This document shows, piece after piece, positions 610 to 20,281 of a stretch of DNA of 33,938 bases. The DNA is from Candidatus Izemoplasmatales bacterium (GTDB lineage: Bacteria; Bacillota_I; Bacilli_A; Izemoplasmatales; Hujiaoplasmataceae), in assembly GCA_028691315.1 (NCBI GenBank), contig JAQUZN010000013.1:1-33938 (forward strand). The letters run 5' to 3'. The notes under the pieces were generated by a model. The model did not search any database and had not been told where the DNA came from. It saw only the letters and a program-made list of their open reading frames with translations. A program made the translations under genes and the position numbers. The number at the start of each line of letters is the position of its first letter. Positions within the stretch are counted from its first letter, which is position 1.

Positions 610-619
610 GAGGAAAAAT

Positions 620-1921: not shown

Positions 1922-1928
1922 TGATATC

Positions 1929-2846: not shown

Positions 2847-2877
2847 AATAAGATATAATAAAAAGGAGAGAAATAAA

Positions 2878-3705: not shown

Positions 3706-3739
3706 TTTAATTCGTTTTACCCTGTAATAGGAGGGCAAT

Positions 3740-5067: not shown

Positions 5068-5072
5068 AGCCA

Positions 5073-5972
5073 ATGACTAATTATTATCTTGGAATTGATG
5101 GTGGGGGTAGCAAGACGCACTTTGTCGTAATTGATAACAACTCTAAAGTCGTATTTGAAAAAACAGAGGGACCTTCCGCTATTGATACTGTTGGAATTGA
5201 AGGGTGTTTAAGTACCATTTCGGGTCTTCTAAAAGCGATGCCTAATGGTATTCAAATTAGTTCAGTATTCGCGGGAATTGGTGGTGTTTCAGGTGTTGTT
5301 CATGAAGAAGAACTTCAGACTAGAATAAAGATGCTTGATAGAATTAACAAAGACGCTTTTGTTAAAGTTAAAAATGATGTTTCTGTCGCACTTCTTTCAA
5401 AAGACGGAACTTTTGAGGGTATGACATTGATTTTAGGGACAGGTTCTGTATGTTATGGTGTACATCATGGGAAAGAGTACCGCGTTGGTGGATATCATTT
5501 TCAAGAGGGTGACCTTGGTAGCGCTTATGATCTAGGGACGCAGGCAATGCGCCATTTAGCCAAAGTATTAGATAAAAGAAATAAATCAAGTGACTTTGCA
5601 AATCAATTGATGAAGGAAACAAATGTTTATGATTTTGTTTCAATGGCCGCTTATTTTGATACTTGGAATCGTTCTGAAGTAGCGAAACTTGCGAAAATCG
5701 TTACTAAATTTGCATCTGTAGATGAAGATGCAATGGCTATTTTAGAAAATGCATCTAATGAAGTATTTCACTTAGTTAGAACGCTTTACCATGAACTTGC
5801 ATTTGATGAGACCAAGCTTGTACTGGTTGGGGGACTTGCAAATGCAGATACTTTGTATAAAACAATGTTCTTAAATAAAATTCATTCAATTTCAAAAAAA
5901 ATCGAGATTATTTCACCAAAGTATACACCTGCAGAAGCTGCAGCTGTTTATGCGAAGAATGTTGCAAATTAA
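5073..5972 (+). CDS. BadF/BadG-type ATPase, N-acetylglucosamine-kinase-like
   Basis: This 299-residue ASKHA-fold kinase carries the phosphate-1 loop near its start (GIDGGGSKTH), the phosphate-2 region (LGTGSV, about residue 125) followed by GGYHFQEGDLGSAYDLG, and a C-terminal adenosine-type motif (VGGLANA). This arrangement is that of the BadF/BadG/BcrA family members annotated as N-acetylglucosamine or glucosamine kinases. It probably phosphorylates the sugar imported by the upstream ABC transporter, in the cytoplasm. It is the last gene of the operon and begins 5 bases behind the SGNH hydrolase gene. A different hexosamine or a non-sugar substrate is possible. A terminator lies about 160 bases downstream. 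Confidence 0.87.
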   Translation: MTNYYLGIDGGGSKTHFVVIDNNSKVVFEKTEGPSAIDTVGIEGCLSTISGLLKAMPNGIQISSVFAGIGGVSGVVHEEELQTRIKMLDRINKDAFVKVKNDVSVALLSKDGTFEGMTLILGTGSVCYGVHHGKEYRVGGYHFQEGDLGSAYDLGTQAMRHLAKVLDKRNKSSDFANQLMKETNVYDFVSMAAYFDTWNRSEVAKLAKIVTKFASVDEDAMAILENASNEVFHLVRTLYHELAFDETKLVLVGGLANADTLYKTMFLNKIHSISKKIEIISPKYTPAEAAAVYAKNVAN

Positions 5973-6300: not shown

Positions 6301-6849
6301 ATGGAAGATGAAATTACTCAATTTCTTGAACAAAAACAAATTACATACTCAATAATCAATCCTAAAGATATTATTTTTCGTGATGAATTTACCGACAGAT
6401 GCAAGATGAATTATTGTGGAAGATACAACACATCATGGACTTGCCCTCCGGCAATTGGTGATATTTCAGAATTAAGAAAACGTGTAATATCTTATCCTAA
6501 AGCCATCCTTTATCAGATGATCTTTCCTTTAGAAGACAATTATGATGTTGAAGGAATGGATGAAGGAAGACATTGCATTATGAAAGTAACACTAGAGCTA
6601 CATCAATTGCTTCAACATCAAAATTCTCCTTTTTTAGTTTTGGCTGCTGGAAGTTGTTCTATATGTCCTATATGCACTTATCCTGATAAAGAATGTCGGC
6701 ATCCTGAACTAAAACTATATTCAATGGAATCACTAGGAATCGATGTTGCAGTACTGTCTAAAATGTATCAATTAAAATATTATAATGGACCCTGTACGGT
6801 AACATATTATTCTGTGGTCTTCTTTTCGGAGGAAAAATGCCAACTGTAA
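6301..6849 (+). CDS. DUF2284 predicted metal-binding protein
   Basis: This 182-residue cytoplasmic protein matches the DUF2284 pattern. It has an N-terminal C-x4-C-G-R-Y-x-x-x-W-x-C-P-P block (Cys34, Cys39, Cys48), a central variable part, then a ferredoxin-like C-x2-C-x2-C-x6-C cluster (Cys119, 122, 125, 132) followed by RHPE and the S-M-E-S-L-G-I-D-V stretch. An Fe-S cluster is likely. Family function is not established. It overlaps the start of the corrinoid-activator gene by 13 bases, so it probably acts with it, for example in electron delivery to that protein's 2Fe-2S centre; this is inference. The ATG is well placed behind GAGGAG. Confidence 0.85.
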   Translation: MEDEITQFLEQKQITYSIINPKDIIFRDEFTDRCKMNYCGRYNTSWTCPPAIGDISELRKRVISYPKAILYQMIFPLEDNYDVEGMDEGRHCIMKVTLELHQLLQHQNSPFLVLAAGSCSICPICTYPDKECRHPELKLYSMESLGIDVAVLSKMYQLKYYNGPCTVTYYSVVFFSEEKCQL

Positions 6850-8309
6850 CGATTCGAAATTTAAATAATTACACGATAAATTCAACGAAAGTAAATCAAG
6901 ATCTCCTTTCACTTCTGAGGGAAAATCATTTATATATTAATAGTCCATGCGGTGGAACTGGTACATGTGGAAAATGTTTAGTCTATTTAGTAGAAAAAGA
7001 AACGATGGTTCAAGCATGCCAAAAAAAAGTTACATCTGACATGACTATTGAGATTACTTTACTAAATTCAAAAGCGAACATTAATACTACTAAACAAACT
7101 TCTTTTAAGCCAAGTGAAAACAAAGTAGGGCTTGCTATTGATCTTGGAACTACCACACTTGCATTTTATTTTATGGATCTTGTCACAAAAGATATTATTT
7201 ATTCAACCTCTGCAATCAATAATCAAATTGCATATGGTGCAGATGTAATTTCTAGAATCAATCAATCAATCCAAGGAAATTTTGAAGCGATATTTCATAC
7301 GATTATTTCACAAATCAATCAAGAAATCGATTTGTTTTTGAAAAAGTATAGATATACTTATATTAGTCAAATGGTAGTATCAGGCAATCCAACGATGATT
7401 CATATCCTCAACCACACGAACCCTCACACCATTGGCTTTGCACCTTATAACTGTGTATTTACAAACGCCATTTTCAAAAAAGGAAGTTCAATGCTACTTC
7501 AAACAGATGAAGTATCCTTACTTCCACTTGTTAGTGCCTTTATTGGCTCTGATTTAGTCGCAGGCATCATTTCTTCAAAAATGATGGCAATGCCCAATAG
7601 CCTGTTAATTGATCTAGGCACCAACGGTGAAATGATTCTTCATACACAAGATGAATTATTTGGAATATCCACAGCGACAGGGCCTGCATTTGAAGGGGCA
7701 TCCATTGAAATGGGCTTAGGTGGCGTGGATGGTGCAATTAATCATGTTGAGTATAAAGACAATTTTTTTACATACTCAACGGTTTCTGGTCAAGCAAGAG
7801 GTATCACAGGATCAGGACTTATCGACGCTGTTGCTATCTGCATCAAAGAAGGGTTTATAGATGAGACCGGTGCTCTCTCATATCCACTTTTAGAACAAAT
7901 TCCCAATATCTATCATGATAACCGGATCTATATTAACAAAGATGTTTATATCTCGCAAAAAGACATCAGAGAATTTCAACTTGCTAAAAGCGCAATTAGA
8001 GCTGGAATCGAGTCATTACTCAGCGTGACAAAAGTAAGTATTAAAGCGCTGAACCAGGTATATATTGCTGGTGGGTTTGGCTTTTATCTAAACATTAAAA
8101 ATGCGATAACTTGCGGGATGTTTCCCAAAGAATTTGAAGCGATTATTGTTTCAATTGGCAATGCATCTGGATTTGGAAGTCAAATTATCTTGACTAGACC
8201 AGATGAAATGAATAATGCGATTAAAATTGCTAAGGAAGTAAAAACCATTGAATTAACAAAACTGGCAATGTTCTCAAACTTGTTTATCGAACATATGCTT
8301 TTTGAATAA
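6837..8309 (+). CDS. RACE-type reductive activator of corrinoid proteins (2Fe-2S + ASKHA/DUF4445)
   Basis: The 490-residue product begins with a plant-type 2Fe-2S domain: Cys38, 44, 47 and 61 in a C-x5-C-x2-C-x13-C pattern. From about residue 98 follows an ASKHA ATPase domain of the DUF4445/RamA-RACo type, with a GLAIDLGTTTLA phosphate loop, a NGEM-containing segment (LIDLGTNGEM), GPAFEGA and GITGSGLIDA. Such proteins use ATP to reduce the inactive Co(II) state of corrinoid methyltransferase proteins to Co(I). The likely client is the corrinoid protein at 9776-10417. At 490 residues it is shorter than the roughly 600-residue forms, so the linker region between the domains is reduced. It overlaps the DUF2284 gene and is followed by the PocR/AraC regulator. 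Confidence 0.92.
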   Translation: MPTVTIRNLNNYTINSTKVNQDLLSLLRENHLYINSPCGGTGTCGKCLVYLVEKETMVQACQKKVTSDMTIEITLLNSKANINTTKQTSFKPSENKVGLAIDLGTTTLAFYFMDLVTKDIIYSTSAINNQIAYGADVISRINQSIQGNFEAIFHTIISQINQEIDLFLKKYRYTYISQMVVSGNPTMIHILNHTNPHTIGFAPYNCVFTNAIFKKGSSMLLQTDEVSLLPLVSAFIGSDLVAGIISSKMMAMPNSLLIDLGTNGEMILHTQDELFGISTATGPAFEGASIEMGLGGVDGAINHVEYKDNFFTYSTVSGQARGITGSGLIDAVAICIKEGFIDETGALSYPLLEQIPNIYHDNRIYINKDVYISQKDIREFQLAKSAIRAGIESLLSVTKVSIKALNQVYIAGGFGFYLNIKNAITCGMFPKEFEAIIVSIGNASGFGSQIILTRPDEMNNAIKIAKEVKTIELTKLAMFSNLFIEHMLFE

Positions 8310-8332
8310 CGTACTAAAGGGGTGTGATGAAT

Positions 8333-9631
8333 ATGAAGGTTGCGATTAGTGATTTTACTCTTGAACAAGTACTTAATCTAAAAGATCTAGAACAATTGTT
8401 CAGTCATTTTGCTAAACTAACTGGGATTGATGTATCGTTACACGACCCAGAAGGTCGTGAAATACTAGCGTACCGTCTAAACCCAGAAAAAAACATCTGT
8501 GAACTTGTAAAATCAAGACAATCAAACTGCGATTTTCAAATGAAGTATGCAGGACTTAAGTCAGCGGACCTGGGACAACCTTATATCTTTCAATGTGGAA
8601 CGATGGTCAAGTGTAGTGTTCCAATTTTGTTTGAGGAGAAATATATTGGGTCTTTAGCCTGTGGACCAGTTTTACTGTGGGATGCTGATGAAATTGCTAG
8701 AGGCGATTTGATTAATTTCGCAAAGACCTATCATATTCCCCAAGAAGATGCGGATTCCATTATGGATTGTGTGAAACAATTATCTCCAGAAAATATGCGC
8801 AGTGCAGCTGAAATGCTTAATTTAATGGTTTCATTTATGTGTAAAGAAGAATCTATCTTCCTCCAACAAAGAACGAAGATTACAAAACAACAAAATCAAA
8901 TCGCCGATTTGATTATCGAGAAAAGAATCAATGCCCTGAGTATGGAGACAATGGAAAAGAGAAATAAATTCCGTAAATATCCCTATGAACTGGAAAAAGA
9001 ATTAATTGCTTTTCTTCAAACTGGTGATAACAAGAATGCCATGCAAATTTTAAATTCAATACTAGGTGAAATTTTTTCATTATCCTCAGGTAATCTAGAT
9101 ATTATCAAAGCCAATGTCTATGAACTAACTGCTGTATTAATGAGAGCAGGAGTAGACGCAGGCGTAAGTTTATCTGACATGAGTCAAATATTAAGAAAAG
9201 TAACCGTCATTTTATCAGATGATACTTTATATGATGAAGTATGCCTTCTAACAACAGAAGTAATGGAAGAGATTAATAAAGTAATTTCCGCTAATAAATT
9301 TAAAAAACAAAGCAACGAAAATTTAATTAATGCGATTAGTTATATCAAGAAAAACTATCGTTTTGATTTAAGCCTTGATAATGTCGCAAATAGTGTATTT
9401 GTAAGTTCTTACTACCTTAGTCATCTATTTAGAGACGAAATTAATATGACTTTTAGCGATTATGTGAACAAAGTACGGATGGATGAGGCAATAAAACTGA
9501 TGAAAGAAACCCATATGGCAATTCAAGATATTGCAATAAAATGTGGATTCTCTGATGCTAGTTATTTTACAAGGACATTTAAGAAATATCATGGAATTAC
9601 TCCAAAAAAATACATGAGTCTTTATTTTTAA
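8333..9631 (+). CDS. PocR-sensor / AraC-family transcriptional regulator
   Basis: This is a two-part cytoplasmic regulator of about 432 residues. The N-terminal 170 residues have the PocR ligand-sensor pattern (DLEQLFSHFAKLTGIDVSLHD, several spaced cysteines, then CSVPILFEEKYIGSLACGPV). A helical linker follows, and the last 100 residues are a double helix-turn-helix AraC domain (YLSHLFRDEIN and CGFSDASYFTRTFKKYHGITPKKY). PocR domains bind small organic ligands; in Salmonella PocR responds to 1,2-propanediol. Placement directly before the corrinoid operon suggests that it activates that operon when the methylated substrate is present. Starts at 8324 (GTG), 8327 and 8333 (ATG) are possible. 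I prefer 8333 because the SD AAAGGGG (8316-8322) is then 10 bases away. Confidence 0.9.
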   Translation: MKVAISDFTLEQVLNLKDLEQLFSHFAKLTGIDVSLHDPEGREILAYRLNPEKNICELVKSRQSNCDFQMKYAGLKSADLGQPYIFQCGTMVKCSVPILFEEKYIGSLACGPVLLWDADEIARGDLINFAKTYHIPQEDADSIMDCVKQLSPENMRSAAEMLNLMVSFMCKEESIFLQQRTKITKQQNQIADLIIEKRINALSMETMEKRNKFRKYPYELEKELIAFLQTGDNKNAMQILNSILGEIFSLSSGNLDIIKANVYELTAVLMRAGVDAGVSLSDMSQILRKVTVILSDDTLYDEVCLLTTEVMEEINKVISANKFKKQSNENLINAISYIKKNYRFDLSLDNVANSVFVSSYYLSHLFRDEINMTFSDYVNKVRMDEAIKLMKETHMAIQDIAIKCGFSDASYFTRTFKKYHGITPKKYMSLYF

Positions 9632-9638
9632 TAAACAG

Positions 9639-9673
9639 ATAAGTCCACATGCAAATATGGACTTATTTTTTTG
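9639..9673 (+). terminator. Rho-independent terminator after the PocR/AraC gene
   Basis: The arms ATAAGTCCA (9639-9647) and TGGACTTAT (9658-9666) pair perfectly around a 10-base loop and are followed by a run of seven T. This separates the activator/regulator genes from the corrinoid operon. Confidence 0.88.
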
Positions 9674-9714
9674 GGATATAACAATATAGTGCTACTTTAT
9701 GACAAAAAAACGAG

Positions 9715-9743
9715 TGTTAGCGCTTTAAATATTAGGGTATAAT
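9715..9743 (+). promoter_or_regulatory. Promoter of the corrinoid/sugar operon with an overlapping cre-like site
   Basis: A TATAAT lies at 9738-9743, but the -35 position (about 9715-9720, TGTTAG) is poor, as expected of a promoter that needs an AraC-type activator. The same bases form a cre-like sequence: TGTTAGCGCTTTAAA (9715-9729) fits TGNNARCGNWWWCAW except for A instead of C near the end. CcpA bound there would block the -35 region. Both roles are inferred from sequence. Confidence 0.55.
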
Positions 9744-9775
9744 ACAATTGATTTTTCAAAAAGGATGGTATAAAC

Positions 9776-10417
9776 ATGATTTTAGACGAAATAAGCACCT
9801 TACTTCAAAAAGGAAAGGCAAAAGAAGTCAAACTGTTAGTTCAAAACGCACTAGATGAAGGGATAGCTCCTGTAGAAATCCTAAATCAGGGATTAATTAA
9901 AGGAATGTCCATCATTGGTGGAAAATTCAAAAACAATGAAGTCTTTGTGCCTGAAGTACTTGTTGCGGCACGTGCTATGAACTCTGGACTTGAAATCTTG
10001 CGTCCAGCTTTAGTCCTTGCGGGAAACAAGTCAGTAGGTAAAGCACTAATATGTACTGTTTCTGGAGACTTACATGATATTGGCAAAAACCTTGTCAAAA
10101 TGATGATGGAAGGCCAAGGAATTGAAGTCATCGACTTGGGTGTAGATGTTAGCCCAGAAACAATTATTGAAGCAATCAAAGAGCATCATCCACAGATTAT
10201 TTGCCTTAGTGCATTACTGACAACGACAATGATGAACCAAAAGGTAATCATTGATTCGATAAATGATTCAGGTCTACGCAGAAAAATCAAAATCATGATT
10301 GGTGGCGCACCAGTAACTGAACAATACGCTAAAGAAATTGGAGCTGATGGATATTCGCCTGATGCCGCAAGTGCATCAGAAATGGCATTATCATTTTTAT
10401 GTAAAGGAGATTGCTAA
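9776..10417 (+). CDS. Corrinoid (B12-binding) methyltransferase protein, MtaC/MtvC type
   Basis: The 213-residue product has the two-part structure of corrinoid proteins in three-component methyltransferase systems. A helical cap (about residues 1-85, with GLIKGMSIIGGKFKNNEVFVPEVL-type residues around 40-62) is followed by a Rossmann B12-binding domain. The signature GDLHDIGKN is present, with His100 as the expected lower cobalt ligand. Downstream, SALLTTTM and IGGAPV complete the B12 fold. It would carry the methyl group from a methylated donor to an acceptor between the partner methyltransferases. It is the first gene of an operon running to 19312, and the next gene starts 1 base after its stop. 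Co(II) repair would come from the activator at 6837-8309. Confidence 0.94.
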   Translation: MILDEISTLLQKGKAKEVKLLVQNALDEGIAPVEILNQGLIKGMSIIGGKFKNNEVFVPEVLVAARAMNSGLEILRPALVLAGNKSVGKALICTVSGDLHDIGKNLVKMMMEGQGIEVIDLGVDVSPETIIEAIKEHHPQIICLSALLTTTMMNQKVIIDSINDSGLRRKIKIMIGGAPVTEQYAKEIGADGYSPDAASASEMALSFLCKGDC

Positions 10418-10418
10418 G

Positions 10419-11504
10419 ATGTTCAAAACAATTGATTCTTATAAAATTGATATTGATAAGACATTTAGTGAATCAAAGAAATTATACGATGATGCCTTGC
10501 ACAAAATTCCAGGGAATATCAGCTTCCGCACACTACCACCAAGTGATGTTGAAATCTATACTCGACTTGATCTAACAAAATACAATTACATAACTGATGT
10601 TGATAAGTACGCAGAGGATCTTATTTCACTCTTAGATGAATCCTATACGAAGCGTGCCTTAATTGATGACAATATGATTCCAACTATTTTTCCTATATTG
10701 GGAATTGGTGATTACAGCGCGTTTGTTGCCGGAGATATTATTTTTAAAAAAGATACTTCATGGGGACAGCATATTCTAAACGAAATTGATGATTATAAAA
10801 AATTACCACCCATCGGAACGGCAATTTGGTATAAAAGATTTTTAGAAATTTCTGAAGCATTAATTAAAAAAAGTGCTTCAAAGGAAATTCCATATATGCG
10901 AGGCTTTTTTTCGCCACTAGATCTTGCACATGCACTTCGGGGAGAAGATATCTATTATGATTTCTATGATGAACCCGAAAAAGTTCATGAACTTCTAAAT
11001 TACTGTGCTGATGCAATTATTCATTTCGCTGAAGACATCTACAACCTTGTTGAACAATACTATCGAAACACAAAATATGGCACATGGTACACCAAAAACT
11101 GTATTAACATGTCTGAAGATATCGCATGTATGATCAGCGGTGAGACCTATAGAGAATTCTGCATGCCACATACACAAAAAGTAATCGATTATTTTGGCAT
11201 TGGCTATATGCATTGCCATTCACGGGCTATGTACTTAGTAAAAGAAATTTGCTCTATGAGAAACGTAGTCCACTTGTGGTTAGCTACGGATCCTAATCAG
11301 CCAAGACCGATGGAACATCTAGAATCACTAATCAAAGATGCAAATGGAGCAGTTTTAGCAATTGATTGTGACAATTTTGAAGAAATAGAAAATAATTTTG
11401 AATTAATGAAAAAAGGGAATTTCTCAATTTGCTTACCGGTTTCTTCAATTGATGAAGGAATTGAATTAACAAACCGGTTTAGAAAGTGTAACAAGGAGGA
11501 ATAA
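10419..11504 (+). CDS. URO-D-fold protein, putative corrinoid-dependent methyltransferase (paralogue 1)
   Basis: This product of about 361 residues shows the C-terminal half of the uroporphyrinogen-decarboxylase/MtaA-like TIM barrel, including the motif following YFGIGYMH. At the usual H-x-C zinc site it reads His265-Cys266-His267, and Cys338 lies near the position of the third ligand, so metal binding may be altered. It is unlikely to be the heme enzyme HemE: it directly follows the corrinoid protein and no heme gene is near. I infer a role as the methyl-donor-specific methyltransferase, or a regulatory or structural relative. A longer frame opens upstream at 10338, but the ATG at 10419 has SD AAAGGAGA (10403-10410) and avoids overlapping the corrinoid protein gene. 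Confidence 0.8.
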   Translation: MFKTIDSYKIDIDKTFSESKKLYDDALHKIPGNISFRTLPPSDVEIYTRLDLTKYNYITDVDKYAEDLISLLDESYTKRALIDDNMIPTIFPILGIGDYSAFVAGDIIFKKDTSWGQHILNEIDDYKKLPPIGTAIWYKRFLEISEALIKKSASKEIPYMRGFFSPLDLAHALRGEDIYYDFYDEPEKVHELLNYCADAIIHFAEDIYNLVEQYYRNTKYGTWYTKNCINMSEDIACMISGETYREFCMPHTQKVIDYFGIGYMHCHSRAMYLVKEICSMRNVVHLWLATDPNQPRPMEHLESLIKDANGAVLAIDCDNFEEIENNFELMKKGNFSICLPVSSIDEGIELTNRFRKCNKEE

Positions 11505-11506
11505 TC

Positions 11507-13831
11507 ATGAAAAAATTTAGCGTAATATTATTAACTATTGTTTTTCTTGCTTTTTCATGGGTTTTTTCTACGCCTGTTTTCGCAGACGGTGCAACTTCTT
11601 TAAGAATTTGGTTTTCTCAATATGATGAAGAAAATTTGGCAATGGAAGCCATTGCTAAGAGATATGAAGAAGAAACTGGCGTTCATGTAGAAGTTATCTC
11701 AAGAATTAATCTTTTTAATGCTGTTAAAGACTTAGTGAATAATGCTACGCTTGATGATAGACCTGATATTGTCTACTTGCAGGCACCAGATATTGGTCTT
11801 CTAGTAAAAAGTGGATATCTTCGTGATATCAGTGATGCAATTGATGAAGAAATGACTACTAGATTTGTTGACGTTGCTTTTTCTGCATTTTCATACAACG
11901 GATCTAATTATGGAGTCGGATATTCTGTTGACTCTTATGGACTAATCTACAACAAGGCATATATATCAGAAGAAGAACTACCAAAAACCTGGGATGAGTT
12001 TTATGCAACTGCAAAAGCACTAACTCAAGTTGATGAGGATGGAAATGTACTAGTTCATGGTGCGTTACTTAATTCTAGAGACATGTGGTTTAATTATTCT
12101 CTGATAAAATCTTTTGGTGGATATTACTATGGTACTTTCCCAAATGGGGATTATAATCCATATGATATTGGATTAGATAATCCTGGCATGCTTGATTATA
12201 TCGCGTTAATGAAAGAGATGAAATCTAATAACCTTGTTTTGACAAACAAGATTCATGGCGAAAGTGAAATTGTATCTCGATTTGCAAATGGAAAAGTAGC
12301 AATGATTATTTACGGATTATGGTATGCTTCTTCATTTCAACAACAAGGAATTGATTATGGCATTGCTTCATTACCAGATTCATCTGATGGAACTATTTCC
12401 AAAGCGTTAGCTACAGTCACAGGGTTTGCCGTCAACAATTACACGCTTCATCCAGATGAATCAGTTTCGTTCTTGAAATATATTCTTGAAGATGATAATC
12501 AACAACTATTGATTGAAGCCGGAAATGGATACTCCCAATTGCTAGGCACAAGAAATCCAGCGAACAAAAGTGTGATTGCTTCAGCTTATATTCAAAGTTC
12601 GGATATTCTATCCTCTTTATCTTCTTTAAATGATGAATGTGAACCTTTCCCAAATATTGCTGAAGGGCAGATTTGGTACAATTATACAAGCACTGTATTT
12701 CAAAGTATCTTTTTTGGCGATGCAAATGGCGATGAAGTAGATCCACAGGCAAAGTTATCTGAACTAACAGAAAAAATTCGTGAAGATGTTCAGCTAATGA
12801 ACTATCAAGCCGAAAGAATAGAAGTTCCACCTGTATTTTATCTAGTGTTGATTTTACTTGCCATAGGATTTATCGTATTTAAAATTGTTCGCTTTAAAAT
12901 TGAACAAAAAAAGCAATTATATCACTCCAGACTATCTTGGAAAGAAACATTTCTTGCATGGGGATTGATGACACCTTTACTGATATTACTGCTAGTCTTT
13001 TATGTATATCCAATATGTCATAATTTCTATCTATCACTAACAGATTATAGTGGCGTGAACCTTAGAGATTATGGGCTAATAGGATTTGCAAACTACAAAA
13101 ATATTTTTGTAGCAGGACTAGATGGTTTGATTAAAATGAGTTGTTGGACAATAATCTTCGCAACACTCGTGGTTGTAATTGCATTTATCTTAGGAACTTT
13201 TTTAGCTACTTTATTATGTGAAATTAACTTCAAGGTTGCTAAAATCTATCGTATCGTATTTATCTTACCATGGGTGATTCCAACCGTCATTACACTATTA
13301 ATGTGGCAAGGACTTTTAGATACCGATGGTGGACTAATTAATCAGTTACTGGGTTTGATTGGAATCCCAAATATACCATGGCTATCAGATGCGTTTATGG
13401 CTAAAGTATCAACCGTTCTTGTGATGACCTGGTTCTCATTTCCATACTTCATGGTCGTTGCTTCAGGACTGCTTAAATCGATTCCAAAGGATTATTATGA
13501 TGCGGCAAAAATGGATGGAGCCAATGGCTATTACACATTCAAGTTCATTACTCTTCCACTAGTTTTTAAAGCACTAATTCCAACACTAATTATGTCATTT
13601 ATTATGCAGTTCAATCAATTTGGTGTTTATATCTTGACTGCTGGTGGACCAGCATCAGACAAAATTGGCGCACCAGGCGCAACGGATCTTTTAATTACGT
13701 ATGTATTTAATACAGCATTTAATACGAGTCGTTATGCGGTTGCGGCGAGTTATTCAGTAATTATCTTTGTATTTGTCGCAATTTTTGCAATTATCTCGAT
13801 GAGAGTCGGAAGAAAGGTGGCGAATACTTAA
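11507..13831 (+). CDS. ABC transporter binding protein-permease fusion (MalE-MalF type)
   Basis: This is a 774-residue fusion. It has a signal peptide ending about STPVFA (residue 26) without a lipobox Cys, then a complete extracellular sugar-binding domain (about residues 27-435, with RIWFSQYDEENLAM at its start and GLIYNKAYISEEELPKTWDEF in the middle). A single membrane helix (about 442-461) brings the chain to the cytoplasm. A MalF-type permease follows from about residue 485, with an EAA loop (DAAKMDGAN from residue 665, then ITLPLVF). The receptor is thus tethered to its own channel. The MalG-type partner starts 1 base after the stop. Receptor fusions are known in glycine-betaine and glutamine importers; in the CUT1 sugar family I regard the fusion as unusual. 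No ATPase gene is present, so a shared ATPase is inferred. Confidence 0.93.
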   Translation: MKKFSVILLTIVFLAFSWVFSTPVFADGATSLRIWFSQYDEENLAMEAIAKRYEEETGVHVEVISRINLFNAVKDLVNNATLDDRPDIVYLQAPDIGLLVKSGYLRDISDAIDEEMTTRFVDVAFSAFSYNGSNYGVGYSVDSYGLIYNKAYISEEELPKTWDEFYATAKALTQVDEDGNVLVHGALLNSRDMWFNYSLIKSFGGYYYGTFPNGDYNPYDIGLDNPGMLDYIALMKEMKSNNLVLTNKIHGESEIVSRFANGKVAMIIYGLWYASSFQQQGIDYGIASLPDSSDGTISKALATVTGFAVNNYTLHPDESVSFLKYILEDDNQQLLIEAGNGYSQLLGTRNPANKSVIASAYIQSSDILSSLSSLNDECEPFPNIAEGQIWYNYTSTVFQSIFFGDANGDEVDPQAKLSELTEKIREDVQLMNYQAERIEVPPVFYLVLILLAIGFIVFKIVRFKIEQKKQLYHSRLSWKETFLAWGLMTPLLILLLVFYVYPICHNFYLSLTDYSGVNLRDYGLIGFANYKNIFVAGLDGLIKMSCWTIIFATLVVVIAFILGTFLATLLCEINFKVAKIYRIVFILPWVIPTVITLLMWQGLLDTDGGLINQLLGLIGIPNIPWLSDAFMAKVSTVLVMTWFSFPYFMVVASGLLKSIPKDYYDAAKMDGANGYYTFKFITLPLVFKALIPTLIMSFIMQFNQFGVYILTAGGPASDKIGAPGATDLLITYVFNTAFNTSRYAVAASYSVIIFVFVAIFAIISMRVGRKVANT

Positions 13832-13832
13832 T

Positions 13833-14666
13833 ATGAAAAAATCTAGAATTCATCTTAAAAAACTGATTGCTCATTTCTTTTTACTTGGGTTAACAATTAT
13901 CACATTAATTCCATTTTTGTATATCATACTAATTGCTTTTGGGAAAAATGTCGTTGGTACGAGTGCCACAATTCCTAAGGAATATACCTTAAACAACTTT
14001 TCACGGCTCTTTGTTGAAACAAAGTTTTTATCTTGGATCCAAAATTCACTCGTAATTGCTTTTTCAACGATGGTTATTTCAGTCATTTTTGTTAGTATTA
14101 CCGTTTATGTGTTTTCAAGAATGAAGTTTCACGGTAGAGAAAAGTTATTTCAATTCATTCTTTTAATTCAGATCTTTCCACTGACACTCTCAATGGTTTC
14201 CATCTTTAGTATCTTTGTCAATTTAGGAATTATCAATGACTTGAAAGGCTTGGTTTTATTAAATTCGACGATATCCTCTGCGGGTTTAGTACTACTTGCA
14301 AAAGGTTATTTTGATACGATTCCATATGAAATTGATGAAGCTGCGATGATGGATGGAGCTAGTCGACTTCAAACATGTTTTAGAGTGATTTTACCTCTTG
14401 CCAAACCAATGATGGCAGTCGTTGCGATTCAAAGCTTTGTCATCGCATACAACGAATACGCGATTGCTTCAACGGTAATGACCGAGGGACTAACATCCAT
14501 GCCACTGGCTGTAGGATTACAATCCATGATAACCGGACAGTTCGGTACAAACTGGAGTATGTATTGTGCTGCAGCAATCTTGGGTTCAATTCCAATGATT
14601 ATTTTATTTTATTCGCTCCAAAAATATTTTATTGGCGGACTGACTGAAGGCTCGATAAAAATGTAA
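13833..14666 (+). CDS. Carbohydrate ABC transporter permease, MalG type
   Basis: This 277-residue protein has six predicted membrane helices, an N-terminal Arg/Lys-rich start (MKKSRIHLKK) and the permease EAA loop (DEAAMMDGAS, then VILPLAKP). The C-terminal LQKYFIGGLTEGSIKM matches MalG-type subunits. It begins 1 base after the stop of the binding protein-permease fusion and must be its heterodimer partner. The resemblance to MalG, together with the following neopullulanase-like gene, points to an alpha-glucan or maltodextrin-like oligosaccharide, possibly modified. Confidence 0.93.
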   Translation: MKKSRIHLKKLIAHFFLLGLTIITLIPFLYIILIAFGKNVVGTSATIPKEYTLNNFSRLFVETKFLSWIQNSLVIAFSTMVISVIFVSITVYVFSRMKFHGREKLFQFILLIQIFPLTLSMVSIFSIFVNLGIINDLKGLVLLNSTISSAGLVLLAKGYFDTIPYEIDEAAMMDGASRLQTCFRVILPLAKPMMAVVAIQSFVIAYNEYAIASTVMTEGLTSMPLAVGLQSMITGQFGTNWSMYCAAAILGSIPMIILFYSLQKYFIGGLTEGSIKM

Positions 14667-14678
14667 AGGAAGATATGA

Positions 14679-16367
14679 ATGGTTAAAACTAGTGTACAAC
14701 ATTCCAGCAACCCACCTTACTGTTATCCTATAGCGATTGATACACTTTGTGTCCGTTTGAAAATTAAGAGAAATACTTGCACACTGGTTTTAGTTCATTA
14801 TCAAAATCTGTATGATCATACAAGTTATTTAAAAACATCTGAGATGAAACTAATATTAAGTGATGACTTGTTTGATTTATATGAAACAACCATTACGATG
14901 AAAAGCCGTCATTTCAAGTATTACTTTGATATTACTTGTAAAAATATCATCTATCACTATACATCAGATGGCTTTATTACCGAGCCTGAGCCGTCTAATT
15001 ATTTTTATTATTCATCAATTAATAAAGATGAAATTAAAACACTTCCCAAAAATTGTGAAGGGGAGATCATTTATCAAATTTTAGTCGATCGCTTTTTTGA
15101 TGGAAATCCATTGAATAATCCAAAGAACACGAAAAACAAGAGTGAATTACCAGATCGTAACACCTATTATGGTGGCGATTTTGAAGGAATTGTTCAAAAG
15201 CTCGATTATCTTGATGCTTATGGCGTAAAGATTATTTATTTAAGTCCCGTCTTTGATTCGCCTACTTACCATAAATATGACATTAATGACTATTATCATA
15301 TTGAGGATATATATGGAGGAAAAGAGGGATTAACGACCCTTGTAAAAAAAGCCCATGAAAAAAATATGTTGATAGTTTTGGATACAGTATTTAATCATGC
15401 ATCCTCAAATCATCCATTTTTTCAAGACATTCTTTTAAACCAGGAGAAGTCAAAGTATCTTGATTATTTTGAAATTGAATCTTTTCCTGTTTCTGTAGAA
15501 AAAGGAAATTATAACAATTTTGCTAATTTAGTTCCTTCAATGCCTAAATGGAACACTGTGAATCCTAAAGTTCAAAACTACTTGATTGACTCAAGTATCT
15601 ATTGGATGAAAAAATGTCATATTGATGGATTTAGACTAGACGTTGCAGACGAAGTGTCACACGCTTTTTGGAAAAACTTTTATTTAAGAATTAAACAACA
15701 AAATAAAGACGCAATTATTATCGGCGAAATTTGGAATCAAGCCCAAAACTGGGTCAATACGAATGAAATTGATACTGTTACAGATTACAAATTTCGACAA
15801 TTTCTTCTCGATTTTTCGGGCTTCAAAAAATCATCAACTCACTTTTTTCAAAAACTGAATCATCATAAAATGTTGTATCTTACACCTACATTTAACTATC
15901 TTGTGCATTTGGTAGGAAGTCACGATACGATTCGATTAATAAACTATCTTCAAAAGCCCAAATTTCATTTCTTGACGCTTTCAACAATGCTTTTGTTTGA
16001 TGGGATTCCATTAATTTATTATGGAGATGAAATTGCTTTACCAGGAGAGGTTGATCCTGATAATCGCCGTGCTATGATATGGGATCGACCAATTACAAGC
16101 GAAGAGGAAGCTTTTAAAAAGTTATGCAAGTTTCGTAGCCAGTCTGAAGTTTTAAAAAAGGGAACACTTGAGACGATTTCTTCCACTTCGAGAGTACTTA
16201 AATTTATACGTTCTTATCAAAATCACAAAATTCTTGTTGTCATTAATTTTTCAGGCAGGCCTACTTTGGTGGTCAGTCATGACTACATTCATTTACTTGG
16301 AGAAGTTCTTCAAAAAAATGGCGGATTTATTGTGTATCCGTATTCATATGCATTATTTAGGATTTAA
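14679..16367 (+). CDS. GH13 alpha-glucanase, neopullulanase/cyclomaltodextrinase-like
   Basis: The 562-residue protein lacks a signal peptide, so it acts in the cytoplasm on imported oligosaccharides. An N-terminal beta-rich domain of about 125 residues (CBM34-like position) precedes a GH13 barrel. All conserved regions are present: DTVFNH (from residue 235), GFRLDVADEV with nucleophile Asp321, GEIW with acid Glu350, and GSHDT with Asp416. The MPKWN segment (residue 288) resembles the MPKLN marker of the GH13_20 neopullulanase group. It would hydrolyse alpha-1,4/1,6 links of maltodextrins, cyclodextrins or pullulan fragments. The SD AAAGGAAG lies 6 bases ahead of the ATG. Membership in a corrinoid methyltransferase operon is unusual and suggests that the glucan is methylated or carries a methyl aglycone. 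Confidence 0.93.
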   Translation: MVKTSVQHSSNPPYCYPIAIDTLCVRLKIKRNTCTLVLVHYQNLYDHTSYLKTSEMKLILSDDLFDLYETTITMKSRHFKYYFDITCKNIIYHYTSDGFITEPEPSNYFYYSSINKDEIKTLPKNCEGEIIYQILVDRFFDGNPLNNPKNTKNKSELPDRNTYYGGDFEGIVQKLDYLDAYGVKIIYLSPVFDSPTYHKYDINDYYHIEDIYGGKEGLTTLVKKAHEKNMLIVLDTVFNHASSNHPFFQDILLNQEKSKYLDYFEIESFPVSVEKGNYNNFANLVPSMPKWNTVNPKVQNYLIDSSIYWMKKCHIDGFRLDVADEVSHAFWKNFYLRIKQQNKDAIIIGEIWNQAQNWVNTNEIDTVTDYKFRQFLLDFSGFKKSSTHFFQKLNHHKMLYLTPTFNYLVHLVGSHDTIRLINYLQKPKFHFLTLSTMLLFDGIPLIYYGDEIALPGEVDPDNRRAMIWDRPITSEEEAFKKLCKFRSQSEVLKKGTLETISSTSRVLKFIRSYQNHKILVVINFSGRPTLVVSHDYIHLLGEVLQKNGGFIVYPYSYALFRI

Positions 16368-16382
16368 TGCCATATAGGCATT
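16366..16382 (+). repeat. Intercistronic hairpin between the GH13 and lipoprotein genes
   Basis: AATGCC (16366-16371) and GGCATT (16377-16382) form a 6-base stem with a 5-base loop, overlapping the GH13 stop codon. There is no T tail, so it is not a simple terminator. It could protect or process the mRNA so that the downstream lipoprotein is made in larger amounts. Confidence 0.45.
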
Positions 16383-16407
16383 CATATAAAGAAAAGGAGA
16401 ATTACAA

Positions 16408-17250
16408 ATGAAAAATTTAAAATTATTCGTATCACTTTTTATGCTTTTTGGATTTGCTTTTTTGTTAGTCGGATGCGGTGATAACTCAACAACAACGACA
16501 ACCACAAATGGTGGTAATGATTCTACAACAACTACCACAGAAGCAACACTATCACCTTATTTTGTTGCTGGTAGTTTCAATGGATACATTGCCGATGATG
16601 AAGGCTCTCGTATGCAAGCTCTAGCTGAAGAAGAAGGATGGTATACATTTACTGTTGAACTTAATGCTGACAACCGTGATAATGCGTATGATGGACATTA
16701 TTACACGATTACCGATGGTACATGGACAACAACTTTTGGTACTACTAGCTATGCATTACAGCCTGCTCCTACTTCACCTACAGGTGGAGGAATGGGAAGC
16801 ATTTATGTTTATGAAAATCAAACATTGACTATTTTGTTCGATTCTAACACTAATACTGTTTATGATAGTTCAATGGTTAAAGTACTTGATAACCCAATTA
16901 TTTATGGCGATTTTAATACCGCTATGGATCACGGTGCAGATTGGTCAATTGCTTTAACAGACGCGCTTGTTTTAGAAGACACAGATAGCAATGGTATCTA
17001 TGAGGGCGAATGGACATTCCCAGCATACACTGGTTCAAGTGAATCAGGATATACGTTATTAGTCGCAACTGCAACTGCTTATTATATCGGTGCATGGGGA
17101 CACAGTTGGGGTGTATTAACTCAATATTTGTTTGATGGAAACCTCGCTTCTATGGGAGCTGTTAATAATTTAAAGCCAACAGTTGACACGACATATCATT
17201 TTGCATACGATAGTGCAACTCATATTACTACTTGTACAGTTGTTGAATAA
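16408..17250 (+). CDS. Surface lipoprotein with carbohydrate-binding-like domains
   Basis: The 280-residue product has a lipoprotein signal (lipobox LVGC, Cys23) and then a low-complexity Thr/Asn/Ser linker (about residues 27-48) typical of a flexible stalk. The first domain (about residues 50-150) begins FVAGSFNGY, like the start of starch-binding or SusE/SusF-type beta-sandwich modules. It is rich in Trp, Tyr and Gly. The second part (about 160-280) starts again with IYGDFNTA and may be a second such module. A surface role in holding glucan near the importer is plausible given the GH13 and MalEFG-like neighbours. Catalytic residues were not seen. The SD AAAGGAG is good. Confidence 0.8.
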   Translation: MKNLKLFVSLFMLFGFAFLLVGCGDNSTTTTTTNGGNDSTTTTTEATLSPYFVAGSFNGYIADDEGSRMQALAEEEGWYTFTVELNADNRDNAYDGHYYTITDGTWTTTFGTTSYALQPAPTSPTGGGMGSIYVYENQTLTILFDSNTNTVYDSSMVKVLDNPIIYGDFNTAMDHGADWSIALTDALVLEDTDSNGIYEGEWTFPAYTGSSESGYTLLVATATAYYIGAWGHSWGVLTQYLFDGNLASMGAVNNLKPTVDTTYHFAYDSATHITTCTVVE

Positions 17251-17271
17251 ACAATATAGAATTGAGATGAA

Positions 17272-18324
17272 ATGATGCTTAGACCAAAAAATTGGATTCC
17301 TAATTTTCATAATATGGAATTAATACTGCAAAAAAAAGCAGCTCCAAGACCAGTATTTTTTGATTTCATCATAGGAGATGAAAAAGAAAAGATGTTGGTA
17401 GGAGAATTATATCGTCATGATACAGAATTGGAAAGAGTTGTTACAACAATTCGTGCTTTTGACAGTGCAGGGTTTGATCATGCACCAATCATTGTTAGGG
17501 GATTATCATTTGAACGAAATGGTGAAGTTCATGAAGGTGTATCGACAAAATCTTTGAATAGTGGATCGGTTATTTCTGACTGGGATTCGTATCATCAATA
17601 TAAATGGCCAGAAATAACCGATTGCGATTTTTCGATTATTGATCACGCGAGTGAGTACTTACCTAAAAATGTAAAGTTTATCCCTTTTAGTTTAGATGGA
17701 ATCTTAGAAAATACAATAGGAATTGTCGGTTTTGAAAACTTATGCTATATGGTTTATGATGACTCTGACTTAGCGGAGGCAATCTTTCAAAAAGTGGGAG
17801 AAAGAATCGAAGCATATTTTACCGAGTGCCTCAAAAAACCATCTGTTGGGGCAATCTTATGCAATGATGACTGGGGATTTAACACCCAAACCATGTTGCC
17901 ACCAGATATGCTCAGAAAATATGTGTTTCCTTGGTATAAAAAAATTGTTAAAAAGGCACATGAGTGTGGAAAATATGCAATCCTTCATTCCTGTGGCTAT
18001 TTTGGAGATATCATCGAAGACATTATTGAAGACATGAAATTTGACGGCAGACACTCTTATGAAGACAACATTGTTCCAGTAGAGAAAGCATATCAATCTT
18101 TAAACCCTAGAATTGCAATTCTAGGAGGCATTGATGTTGATTTTTTAGCTAGAGCAACAATTCCAAAAATTATTGAACGGACAAAAAATGTTTTAACTAT
18201 GACAAAAAAATCAGGTGGGTATGCTCTTGGAAGCGGAAATTCGATTCCAGATTATATTCCTAATGACCATTACAAAGCATTTCTCACAGCCGCTCTAGAA
18301 ATGGGTGATTTTACATATGAATAA
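17272..18324 (+). CDS. URO-D-fold methyltransferase, corrinoid system (paralogue 2)
   Basis: This 350-residue protein is clearly of the uroporphyrinogen-decarboxylase superfamily. Its LHSCGYFGDII motif gives His239 and Cys241, the H-x-C pair used for zinc in MtaA/MtbA-type methyltransferases. At the place of the third ligand the sequence reads GSGN (Asn323) rather than GC, so the canonical thiol-activating site is incomplete. In three-component systems URO-D-fold proteins can serve as the donor-side or acceptor-side methyltransferase; this one is a reasonable candidate for the donor side (demethylase). Two ATGs (17272, 17275) are possible with a weak GAGATGA SD. Its 3' end overlaps the next gene. 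Confidence 0.87.
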   Translation: MMLRPKNWIPNFHNMELILQKKAAPRPVFFDFIIGDEKEKMLVGELYRHDTELERVVTTIRAFDSAGFDHAPIIVRGLSFERNGEVHEGVSTKSLNSGSVISDWDSYHQYKWPEITDCDFSIIDHASEYLPKNVKFIPFSLDGILENTIGIVGFENLCYMVYDDSDLAEAIFQKVGERIEAYFTECLKKPSVGAILCNDDWGFNTQTMLPPDMLRKYVFPWYKKIVKKAHECGKYAILHSCGYFGDIIEDIIEDMKFDGRHSYEDNIVPVEKAYQSLNPRIAILGGIDVDFLARATIPKIIERTKNVLTMTKKSGGYALGSGNSIPDYIPNDHYKAFLTAALEMGDFTYE

Positions 18325-19312
18325 AAAAGAATGGATTAATCATATCAAAAATAATAGACAGTTGTCATTGCCGGTATTATCTTTTCCGGCAGTGCAACTG
18401 TTAAATATTACAGTTAAAGATTTAGTAAGTGACAGTACTTTACAAGCTAAAGCAATGGATGCAATTGCACACAGGTATTCAATGAGTGCTTCGTTATCAA
18501 TGATGGATCTAAGCGTTGAAGCAGAAGCTTTTGGCGCAGAAGTACGATATTTTGATATGGATGTTCCAACTGTCATTAAAACGAAAATTGAAACAATGGA
18601 AGATGTTGATAACTTATTAGTTCCTGAAATCGGAACAGGTAGGACTAAAACATATATTGAAGGTATTCGTCAGGCGAAATCTTTGATTACTGACATTCCT
18701 GTTTTTGCGGGAGTGATTGGACCATTCTCTTTGTCTGGAAGACTAATGGATATGACTGAAATTATGGTCAACTGCTATATAAATCCAGAAATGGTACATG
18801 AAACACTAACAAAAGCATCGTTATTTATTAAAAATTATATTTTGAAGTTAAAAGCAGCCGGCGCTGATGGAGTCATAATGGCAGAACCTGCTGCAGGGCT
18901 TCTATCACCTGAAATATGTCAGGAGTTTTCATCAAGGTACATTGCTGACATTGTAAAAGATGTAAATAGTGATGATTTTGTATTTATCTATCACAATTGT
19001 GGAAATGTGATTCCTTTGGTTGATACGATGTTAAGCATAAAAGCAGATATCTATCATTTTGGCGATGCAATAAATATGGAAAACATATTGCGCTTAATGC
19101 CTGCCGATACTGTTGTAATGGGCAACTTAAGTCCTTCTAGTGTATTTCAAAAAGGAACTGTGCAAAGTGTAAAAGACGAAACAAATCATCTGCTTGAAAA
19201 ATGTTCGATTTATGAGAACTTTATTATTAGTTCGGGGTGCGATATTCCTCCACTTACTCCAATTGAAAATATTGATGCATATTTTGAAACAGTATCAAGT
19301 TTTTATAAATAA
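18317..19312 (+). CDS. URO-D-fold methyltransferase, MtaA/MtbA-like (paralogue 3)
   Basis: About 331 residues. This paralogue keeps the full zinc-site pattern of MtaA/MtbA-type methylcobamide methyltransferases: HNCG with His226 and Cys228, and SSGCDIPPLTP with Cys308. It is therefore the best candidate for moving the methyl group from the corrinoid protein to an acceptor. The acceptor (a thiol, or tetrahydrofolate as in acetogens) is not evident from the window. The ATG at 18317 overlaps the previous stop by 8 bases; a GTG at 18305 is an alternative with no better SD. It is the last gene of the operon, followed by a weak terminator. Confidence 0.88.
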   Translation: MNKKEWINHIKNNRQLSLPVLSFPAVQLLNITVKDLVSDSTLQAKAMDAIAHRYSMSASLSMMDLSVEAEAFGAEVRYFDMDVPTVIKTKIETMEDVDNLLVPEIGTGRTKTYIEGIRQAKSLITDIPVFAGVIGPFSLSGRLMDMTEIMVNCYINPEMVHETLTKASLFIKNYILKLKAAGADGVIMAEPAAGLLSPEICQEFSSRYIADIVKDVNSDDFVFIYHNCGNVIPLVDTMLSIKADIYHFGDAINMENILRLMPADTVVMGNLSPSSVFQKGTVQSVKDETNHLLEKCSIYENFIISSGCDIPPLTPIENIDAYFETVSSFYK

Positions 19313-19332
19313 AAAACTAATATTTATTAATC

Positions 19333-19376
19333 GAAAAAGAGAAGATTTTTTGAAAATATTTTCTTTTTCTTTTTTA
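19333..19376 (+). terminator. Probable terminator of the corrinoid/sugar operon
   Basis: GAAAAAGAGAA (19333-19343) pairs with TTTTCTTTTTC (19359-19369) at 10 of 11 positions and is followed by T-rich sequence. The stem is AT-rich, so the call is moderate. The rest of 19313-19510 shows only the promoter of the next gene. Confidence 0.5.
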
Positions 19377-19481
19377 TATTCAGTTTGTAAATACCGATTT
19401 TTGTATCGTATATCTCTATAATTAATATTATGGATTGCTTCAATTCATTAGACATTACACTCTTTATCATAGTTAATTTTA

Positions 19482-19490
19482 TGATATAAT
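19482..19490 (+). promoter_or_regulatory. Extended -10 promoter for the esterase gene
   Basis: TGATATAAT combines a TGn extension with a perfect TATAAT (19485-19490). No good -35 is seen, which is usual for extended -10 promoters. The start codon is at 19511, so the untranslated leader is very short. Confidence 0.6.
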
Positions 19491-19510
19491 ACACGAGATG
19501 GAGGATAATT

Positions 19511-20281
19511 ATGTTAGAAACATTTGAAGTATACATACCAACAACAAAAGCCCAACGTACGATACGTGTCTATGTACCAGATACATGCTGTGAACTTTCT
19601 CCTTGTGATATTTTATTTATGCATGATGCTCAAAACTTATTTGATGATGCAATGAGTTATCATGAAGTATCATGGCGTGTTCAAGATGCAATAGAACAAT
19701 CAAAATACAACCATCTTATCGTTGTTGGAATTGATAATCATCCAGAAGAGCGCATGAATGAATATAGTCCATATGAAACAGCAATAGACTTAAAAGATCG
19801 TTTTATTAATGGCTCTGGTGGTAAAGGATACCAATATATTGATTTTATTGTAAAGGAATTACTACCAATTATTAAAAGCAAGTATTCTACGACAGAAAAC
19901 TATTTTATGGCAGGTAGTTCAATGGGCGCATACATATCAATGTTTGCAGCAATGAAATATCCTGCCCTTTTTCAGGTGATTGGTTCATTCTCAGTTGCTT
20001 CTTGGTTCAATGAAAAATTATTTTTAGAAGCTCTCAATCAATCAAAACTAAATATTAATACAAAATTTTGGGTTACAGTTGGATCTCAAGAATCGTCATC
20101 TAGTTCTATTGAAGAATTTCCTGAAATCTATATAAACAACTCTAAACATCTTGTAGAAACATTAAAAAATAAAGGGATTAAAACAATTTATTTTGAGATT
20201 AATGATGGTGCACATAATGAACGCCAATGGATGGAGTTGTTTCCAAAATTTCTAGATTTTATATACAAAAAAGTAGTATGA
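19511..20281 (+). CDS. Esterase family alpha/beta-hydrolase (Fes/esterase-D type)
   Basis: The 256-residue cytoplasmic protein shows the putative-esterase fold: an N-terminal beta region (TFEVYIPTT..RTIRVYVPD), the FMHDAQNLFDD segment, VVGIDN, and the nucleophile elbow GSSMG with Ser137. A C-terminal GAHNERQW supplies the likely catalytic His. Members cleave acyl esters of sugars, phenolics or siderophores, and some are alpha-glycan-linked acyl esterases. It has its own extended -10 promoter directly after the corrinoid operon. Whether it removes ester groups from the same glycans is a guess. The SD GGAGG (about 19500-19504) precedes the ATG. Confidence 0.85.
   Translation: MLETFEVYIPTTKAQRTIRVYVPDTCCELSPCDILFMHDAQNLFDDAMSYHEVSWRVQDAIEQSKYNHLIVVGIDNHPEERMNEYSPYETAIDLKDRFINGSGGKGYQYIDFIVKELLPIIKSKYSTTENYFMAGSSMGAYISMFAAMKYPALFQVIGSFSVASWFNEKLFLEALNQSKLNINTKFWVTVGSQESSSSSIEEFPEIYINNSKHLVETLKNKGIKTIYFEINDGAHNERQWMELFPKFLDFIYKKVV

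Follow-up and report, generated by a model that had tools for sequence, protein, structure and literature searches.

A corrinoid methyltransferase cluster linked to alpha-glucan import genes suggests anaerobic O-demethylation of a methylated sugar chain in Izemoplasmatales

Anaerobic methyl removal by acetogen-type three-component O-demethylases (MtvB, OdmB, VdmB, and MtoB, with CdmB for chloromethane) relies on a methyltransferase I of the URO-D fold, a corrinoid protein, and an ATP-dependent activator. The type 1 mlp clusters of anaerobes described by Kountz and Balskus combine a corrinoid protein, a RACE protein, and one or more MtaA-like proteins (Mlps), and lack a folate methylase (PMC10418091). 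Also related are the soluble coenzyme M methyltransferases MtaA and MtbA, which carry an HxC...C zinc motif, and the maltodextrin ATP-binding cassette importers (MalE, MalF, MalG) that accompany neopullulanases or cyclomaltodextrinases of the GH13_20 type. Here we describe a gene cluster in the genome of a Candidatus Izemoplasmatales bacterium that brings corrinoid methyltransferase genes together with those of a maltodextrin-type importer. The window, that is the whole stretch of DNA analyzed, comprises 33,938 nt (GCA_028691315.1, contig JAQUZN010000013.1) and is contig 156 in a metagenome-assembled genome of 2.4 Mb; among named relatives, those nearest to it are on record as Acholeplasmataceae and Candidatus Izemoplasmatales.

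Our favored explanation, to which we give somewhat better than even credence, is that the cluster would use B12 to strip O-methyl groups, without oxygen, from an O-methylated alpha-glucan. A surface lipoprotein and a MalE-type binding protein would capture an O-methylated alpha-1,4-glucan or its oligosaccharides, MalFG, with an ATPase encoded elsewhere, would import them, and a cytoplasmic GH13 enzyme would cut the alpha-glucosidic bonds. Two URO-D-fold proteins, UroD1 and UroD2, would take O-methyl groups off the sugar, perhaps at two different positions, and load them onto the cob(I)alamin of the corrinoid protein; RACo would re-reduce cobalt that has fallen to Co(II). The third, UroD3, a His-Cys-Cys zinc enzyme like MtaA, would hand the methyl group to a thiol, most plausibly sulfide with formation of methanethiol and less likely homocysteine. 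The freed glucose units would join ordinary alpha-glucan metabolism.

The original prediction had placed an operon for the import, cleavage, and demethylation of a methylated glucan or methyl glycoside at 9776-19312. The gene linkage and the alpha-glucan role, the latter indicated by the GH13 enzyme and by neighboring phosphorylases, are supported. The sequences show the gene content, its conserved linkage, the protein families, the differences in metal motifs, and the lack of known alternative acceptor enzymes; what we infer is the substrate, the direction of transfer, a thiol as acceptor, and that UroD1 and UroD2 act as demethylases. Every gene it had listed (corrinoid protein, three URO-D-fold proteins, importer, GH13, and lipoprotein) was found, all co-directional, with gaps of -20 to 40 bases in place of the 1-30 bases given earlier. 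The core does lie at 9776-19312, and the unit is larger: genes for DUF2284 (6301), RACo (6837), and a PocR/AraC regulator (8324) lie just upstream, and all cluster genes from 6301 to 20281 run in one direction, with DUF2284 first and an esterase last.

A UroD1 profile scan of 84,980 species genomes yielded 27 loci, 25 of which were true relatives at 50-68% UroD1 identity. By record title these belonged to Izemoplasmatales/Acholeplasmataceae, Haloplasma/Haloplasmataceae, Thermotogae, Clostridia, and Bacillota. UroD1 adjoined the importer and GH13 genes in every one of the 25 loci as far as the contig reached; regular separation of methyltransferase and sugar genes in relatives, which had been named as evidence against the original prediction, was seen in none. 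The full core of UroD1, solute-binding protein (SBP)/MalF, MalG, GH13, and UroD2 was present in 16 of the 25 loci besides the window, eight were cut by contig ends, and the one rearranged locus (L068) had a distant UroD2-like gene. The core order UroD1-SBP/MalF-MalG-GH13-lipoprotein-UroD2 was maintained across several orders and in Thermotogae.

Since these loci had been found through UroD1, a reverse test starting from GH13 was performed in 90 genomes of the order. The GH13 homologs separated into two sets, one at 44-57% identity from 12 genomes, that of the window included, and paralogs at 40% or less, most of them at 32-37%. In all 12 genomes of the GH13 clade the gene lay beside cluster genes (MalG, lipoprotein, UroD2, or UroD1), including G028, where the contig ends before UroD1. 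When 15 loci were compared pair by pair, the identities of UroD1, UroD2, GH13, and the two transporter proteins were correlated (r = 0.62-0.94; matched by 0 of 2000 permutations for every pair); because the loci are related, this correlated divergence is read as joint inheritance and not as independent events. As the core was not found apart in any of the 25 loci and the reverse test agreed, a functional link of the methyltransferase genes with the sugar genes is strongly supported.

The importer consists of a MalE-MalF fusion with a solute-binding domain and a permease (11507..13831; SBP_bac_8 E 2e-35, BPD_transp_1 E 1e-14), which scored 180 bits (E 7e-53) against MalF, where the cut-off is 392, and a MalG-like permease (13833..14666; BPD_transp_1 E 5e-15, MalG E 3e-46). 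The GH13 enzyme (14679..16367; Alpha-amylase E 4e-59 plus N-terminal domain) was closest to neopullulanase/cyclomaltodextrinase structures (PDB 1bvz, TVAII, E 1e-105). It retains RLDVA, GEIW, and SHD, and has the N-terminal alpha-amylase_N domain and the catalytic Asp-Glu-Asp of the GH13_20 type. No signal peptide was found by eye in this protein, which would therefore act in the cytoplasm on imported oligosaccharides. The lipoprotein (16408..17250; lipobox LVGCG), a candidate glycan-binding protein, is built of YGDFN-type repeats of about 120 aa, present in one to several copies in relatives, and gave no match in Pfam or the PDB. Glycogen/maltodextrin phosphorylase genes adjoin the cluster in loci L055, L060, and L065; the first two of these also have neighboring GH13 genes of the debranching type, and L068 has a gene for a CBM48-bearing protein. 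Together with the type of the GH13 enzyme, these neighbors make an alpha-1,4-glucan the likely sugar. Contig 53 of the same genome bears an ordinary maltodextrin/pullulan locus, equipped with an importer, a pullulanase, and GH13 enzymes of its own. An ordinary maltodextrin operon is therefore rejected as a full explanation; the cluster probably serves a special glucan, with a dedicated GH13 enzyme.

An example of a chemically fitting substrate, which we do not claim to be the substrate, is mycobacterial methylglucose polysaccharide (MGLP), an alpha-1,4 chain with 6-O- and 3-O-methyl glucose and acyl esters (PMC4555173). The companion esterases of the clusters, a PF00756 protein in the window (19511..20281, plus strand; E 5e-25) and SASA-type enzymes in L067 and L074, would fit an acylated chain. 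A similar esterase occupies the same position in L050, L052, L057, L058, and L060.

The methyl group could instead reside on an aglycone. An alpha-glucoside, either methyl alpha-glucoside or a glucoside of a methoxylated or N-methylated compound, would then be imported and split by GH13, and UroD1 and UroD2 would demethylate the released aglycone. Enzymes of the GH13_20 type accept varied aglycones, which favors such a scheme, as does the demethylation of small methoxylated compounds by URO-D enzymes (PMC13222342). However, the glycogen phosphorylase and debranching neighbors and the repeat lipoproteins indicate a chain, and neither UroD1 nor UroD2 is closely related to CdmB, a solved O-demethylase relative (at best E 0.4). 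We regard this explanation as unlikely, and of the two substrates originally offered, a methylated glucan or a methyl glycoside, we favor an O-methylated oligosaccharide.

The favored demethylation of the glucan itself depends on the corrinoid protein and its URO-D partners. The MtbC/MtgC-type corrinoid protein (9776..10417; B12-binding E 4e-27, B12-binding_2 E 3e-21) contains the cobalt-ligand motif DLHDIG, of the DxHxxG form expected of these two domains, and scored 204.5 bits (E 1e-60) against TIGR02370, just under the cut-off of 215.3. As the only PF02607 protein in the genome, it is the sole corrinoid methyl carrier. UroD1, UroD2, and UroD3 constitute the whole URO-D set of the genome. 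A role in heme synthesis was rejected, since none of the three reaches the HemE cut-off and all go with the corrinoid protein.

These three proteins, undifferentiated in the original prediction, divide into two with non-thiol metal motifs and one that is MtaA-like. The divergent UroD1 (10419..11504; URO-D E 1e-7) has an invariant HxH (H265, H267) in 22 aligned sequences, and its AlphaFold2 model (predicted local distance difference test score, pLDDT, 94) matched the PDB fold of UROD with a template-modeling (TM) score of about 0.6. The open reading frame start listed for it, 10338, is an artefact; the alignment with 21 relatives begins at MFKTIDSYK, which moves the start to 10419, with a single base between it and the corrinoid gene. 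UroD2 (17272..18324; URO-D E 5e-19) has an invariant HSCG, but where the second Cys would stand, 17 sequences show an invariant GNS. The best PDB fold match of its model (pLDDT 91) was MtaA, 4ay7 (E 1e-14, TM 0.71, 16% identity by fold); by sequence it matched 4ay7 at E 0.05 only. CdmB, the only protein of the O-demethylase group to turn up in the PDB searches, was matched by UroD2 at E 0.42 and not by UroD1. UroD3 (18305..19312, probably starting at ATG 18317; URO-D E 5e-52) was 27% identical to MtaA 4ay7 over 259 aa (E 1e-15), retains the zinc motif HxC and GC(D/G)I, and looks like an MtaA-like thiol methyltransferase. It stayed under the NCBIfam cut-offs for the MtaA/CmuA family (TIGR01463; 125.7 vs. 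235.4 bits), MtaA (115 vs. 400), and MtbA (92 vs. 600).

In this superfamily His-Cys-Cys marks S- and Se-methyltransferases, and O-type enzymes lack one or both Cys (PMC10418091). UroD1 and UroD2 persist in all lineages, whereas a URO-D-thioredoxin fusion can stand in for UroD3 or the stretch may lack it; the former two are therefore likely to be the substrate-facing enzymes, candidate O-demethylases of the methyltransferase I type. A fusion of an MtaA-related URO-D to a thioredoxin-like domain was found at L061:10367-11761, L063:10647-12032, L078:1270-2628, L080:1695-3056, and L081:1459-2817. It carries CAAC in L063 and, where read (L063, L021/L074), the zinc motif FxC...C instead of HxC...C; a CobW-type GTPase follows it in L078 and L080.

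UroD1 and UroD2 might also perform some other reaction on the glucan that is not methyl transfer, with the corrinoid protein and UroD3 serving a separate methyl-transfer task. UroD1 is highly divergent and has uroporphyrinogen decarboxylase as its best fold match, and the corrinoid genes shift position relative to the core among relatives and are missing from some of the fetched stretches. Against this, MtaA is the best fold match of UroD2, corrinoid and activase genes lie within the cluster in most lineages, and the genome holds no other corrinoid methyl carrier. We consider such a division of labor improbable.

A salvage of methyl-sulfur or methyl-selenium that travels with the sugar operon, acting on a methylthio-sugar or a methyl-selenide, would resemble the type 1 mlp clusters. 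The presence of a corrinoid protein, RACE, and an MtaA-like protein, with no folate methylase, fits the type 1 layout (PMC10418091), and UroD3 is 27% identical to MtaA. The His-Cys-Cys site is confined to UroD3, however, and the two most conserved URO-Ds lack it; Mlp2 and Mlp3 are what defines a type 1 cluster, and the text consulted mentions no glucan importers or GH13 enzymes alongside them. The salvage explanation is given a low probability.

We return to O-demethylation of the glucan and the fate of its methyl group. Acceptor enzymes were searched for in cluster-bearing genomes of 68-99% completeness, in which positive controls were detected. PF00809 Pterin_bind (folate methyltransferase, MetH), MetE, and homocysteine methyltransferase were found in none of 11 cluster-bearing genomes, PF00809 being absent from the whole genome of the window; LuxS was found in 0/11 and SahH in 1/12. 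This shared absence in 11 genomes is meaningful though not proof. A folate acceptor was rejected for the known enzyme types, as no PF00809 was present. Methionine synthesis was likewise set aside: MetE, MetH, and homocysteine methyltransferase were missing and enzymes that regenerate homocysteine were few, and we do not favor the possibility that UroD3 is a new methionine synthase. As no acceptor of the folate or methionine-synthase kind was found, UroD3 is the candidate methyl outlet with a thiol acceptor, and the scarcity of LuxS and SahH makes homocysteine the less likely one. In anoxic freshwater sediments sulfide is methylated during O-demethylation, with O-methyl groups as the source (PMC7374477), and by this analogy sulfide is favored.

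That the system runs in reverse and methylates an imported or stored glucan appears very improbable. UroD reactions are reversible in assays (PMC10418091). These genomes nevertheless lack a methyl-to-corrinoid feeder (folate methyltransferase PF00809), and the gene content (importer, hydrolase, phosphorylase, and cre-like control) is catabolic. Finally, a neighborhood without functional link, for which only general possibility speaks, has a negligible probability and is rejected as far as comparison allows by the unseparated 25 loci, the reverse test, and the correlated divergence.

Several observations weigh against the proposed O-demethylation of a methylated glucan. The methylated sugar, the enzyme activities, and expression of the cluster are predictions. 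MGLP, the best documented O-methylated alpha-1,4-glucan, is intracellular and may not be available to these bacteria. The corrinoid gene was not in the fetched stretch of L060, L065, L069, L070, and L072. A PDB profile search with UroD1 returned nothing significant, methyltransferases included, and UroD1 matches UROD by fold only. Moreover, as CdmB acts without zinc (PMC13222342), loss of the motif does not by itself establish O-type chemistry.

Between the regulator gene and the corrinoid gene, a terminator-like hairpin with T-run (9639..9672) is followed by a promoter region (9680..9743, plus strand; an aligned footprint in 10 loci). The hairpin is palindromic and was reported by the scan on the minus strand; TTTTTTT follows it on the plus strand. 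Hairpin and promoter suggest that the activator and regulator genes share one transcript and that a second runs from the corrinoid protein through UroD3. The promoter footprint upstream of the corrinoid gene comprises direct ACAA/GCAA boxes, a cre-like box TGTTAGCGCTTTAA (9715-9728), and TATAAT (9738-9743). The cre-like box matched 9 of 10 informative positions in the window and in five relatives, and seven relatives have it, intact or degenerate, 16 nt before the -10. Its form TGWAARCGYTTT, close before the -10 and with two GCAA/ACAA boxes, is conserved among relatives upstream of the corrinoid gene, and in most relatives box and -10 stand directly before that gene. In single sequences the box was significant against shuffles in 6 of 19 upstream regions, about one third; because so few were significant, its support comes from the aligned position and not from any single match. 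These features suggest carbohydrate-type control of the corrinoid gene. PocR/AraC gives way to a TrmB sugar regulator at the head of the operon in other lineages.

The upstream genes, all on the plus strand, encode a predicted metal-binding DUF2284 protein (6301..6849; PF10050 E 2e-43), a RACo-type reductive activator of the corrinoid protein (6837..8309; RACo_C_ter E 7e-63, Raco_middle E 2e-37, Fer2), and a regulator with a PocR sensory domain and an AraC helix-turn-helix (8324..9631; PocR E 6e-26, HTH_18 E 6e-24). The activator has the 2Fe-2S domain and the RACo ASKHA domains of RACo/RACE proteins, and scored 267 bits against the NCBIfam AcsV-like model, under the cut-off of 800. DUF2284 and RACo adjoin each other and the cluster in 10 other loci, with PocR in 9 of the 10. 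In the Clostridia version of the cluster a gene of about 250 codons lies between the lipoprotein and UroD2 genes (L065:16972-17727, L069:9289-10041, L070:7280-8026); that of L065 encodes an Amidohydro_2 protein. Directly upstream of the cluster in the window is a second sugar operon (103-5972) with genes for a binding protein, two permeases, a lipoprotein, DUF624, a GDSL lipase, and a BadF/ROK-type kinase, which was not seen adjoining the cluster in the mapped relatives. Further downstream, 25730-26707 encodes one protein with an MqsA-like/HTH part and a SocA/Panacea antitoxin domain, and at 27129-31935 genes for a Glu/Leu/Phe/Val-type dehydrogenase, DUF1015, a class V aminotransferase, and a D-isomer 2-hydroxyacid dehydrogenase stand in a row.

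Two clusters of the same order have weaker similarity to that of the window. L081 (G049:C57 9000-28000) has a UroD2-like gene (34%), a corrinoid protein, and a second URO-D, then a PfkB kinase and D-lyxose isomerase, with a class II aldolase and an alpha-mannosidase-type GH38 on the upstream side; it is likely a sibling system for another sugar. In L082 (G059:C18) a corrinoid protein and a URO-D gene lie beside a galactitol-type phosphotransferase system, transaldolase, and DeoR regulators. These clusters suggest a family of sugar-linked corrinoid systems. More broadly, and with slightly less than even credence, we propose that anaerobes of several lineages possess a B12 route for O-methylated polysaccharides, in which UroD1 and UroD2 would be dedicated sugar O-demethylases passing the methyl group to sulfide or another thiol, with siblings for other methylated sugars.

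O-methyl sugars are present in algal, plant, mycobacterial, and cyanobacterial polysaccharides, and the sugar demethylation known to us is oxidative, by a P450 acting on 6-O-methyl-galactose. If our reading is correct, the cluster would be its oxygen-free counterpart and fill a gap in anaerobic carbon cycling, and sugars would join the substrates of corrinoid methyltransferases. With sulfide as acceptor, sediments and digesters would have a further, newly recognized source of methanethiol. A testable role would also fall to a set of divergent URO-D proteins, which family searches would call heme enzymes, in a genome that has no HemE. The original prediction knew of no described system of this kind; searches of an open-access library on corrinoid or sugar demethylation likewise turned up no account of a corrinoid route for sugars, and nothing relevant on Izemoplasma, corrinoids, and polysaccharides stood among the titles listed, with most subscription journals outside the scope of the search.

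Compared with known systems, the cluster appears to be neither a type 1 mlp cluster nor a folate-linked O-demethylase, an exclusion based on checking the defining features of both classes. Like type 1 mlp clusters it has a corrinoid protein and a Ram/RACE protein in a co-directional cluster, and no folate methylase within 20 kb. Such clusters contain at least two Mlps (Mlp2 and Mlp3) more than 25% identical to a characterized soluble coenzyme M methyltransferase and bearing His-Cys-Cys; here only UroD3 qualifies, whereas the two divergent URO-Ds lack the site (HxH in UroD1, HSC then GNS in UroD2) and sugar genes replace the sulfur/selenium genes. Unlike the three-component O-demethylases, the cluster is found in genomes without folate methyltransferase II (PF00809 or MtrH/MtvA-like, 0/11), its UroD1 and UroD2 have no close sequence relation to CdmB, and it is tied to an alpha-glucan importer and GH13. 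UroD3 shares the fold family, the zinc motif, and 27% identity with MtaA, but falls under the family cut-offs for MtaA and MtbA. The MalE, MalF, and MalG homologs and the conserved GH13 catalytic residues are those of maltodextrin importers with GH13_20-type enzymes, whereas this cluster has a MalE-MalF fusion and corrinoid methyltransferase genes interspersed in the operon, and the genome keeps a separate maltodextrin/pullulan locus.

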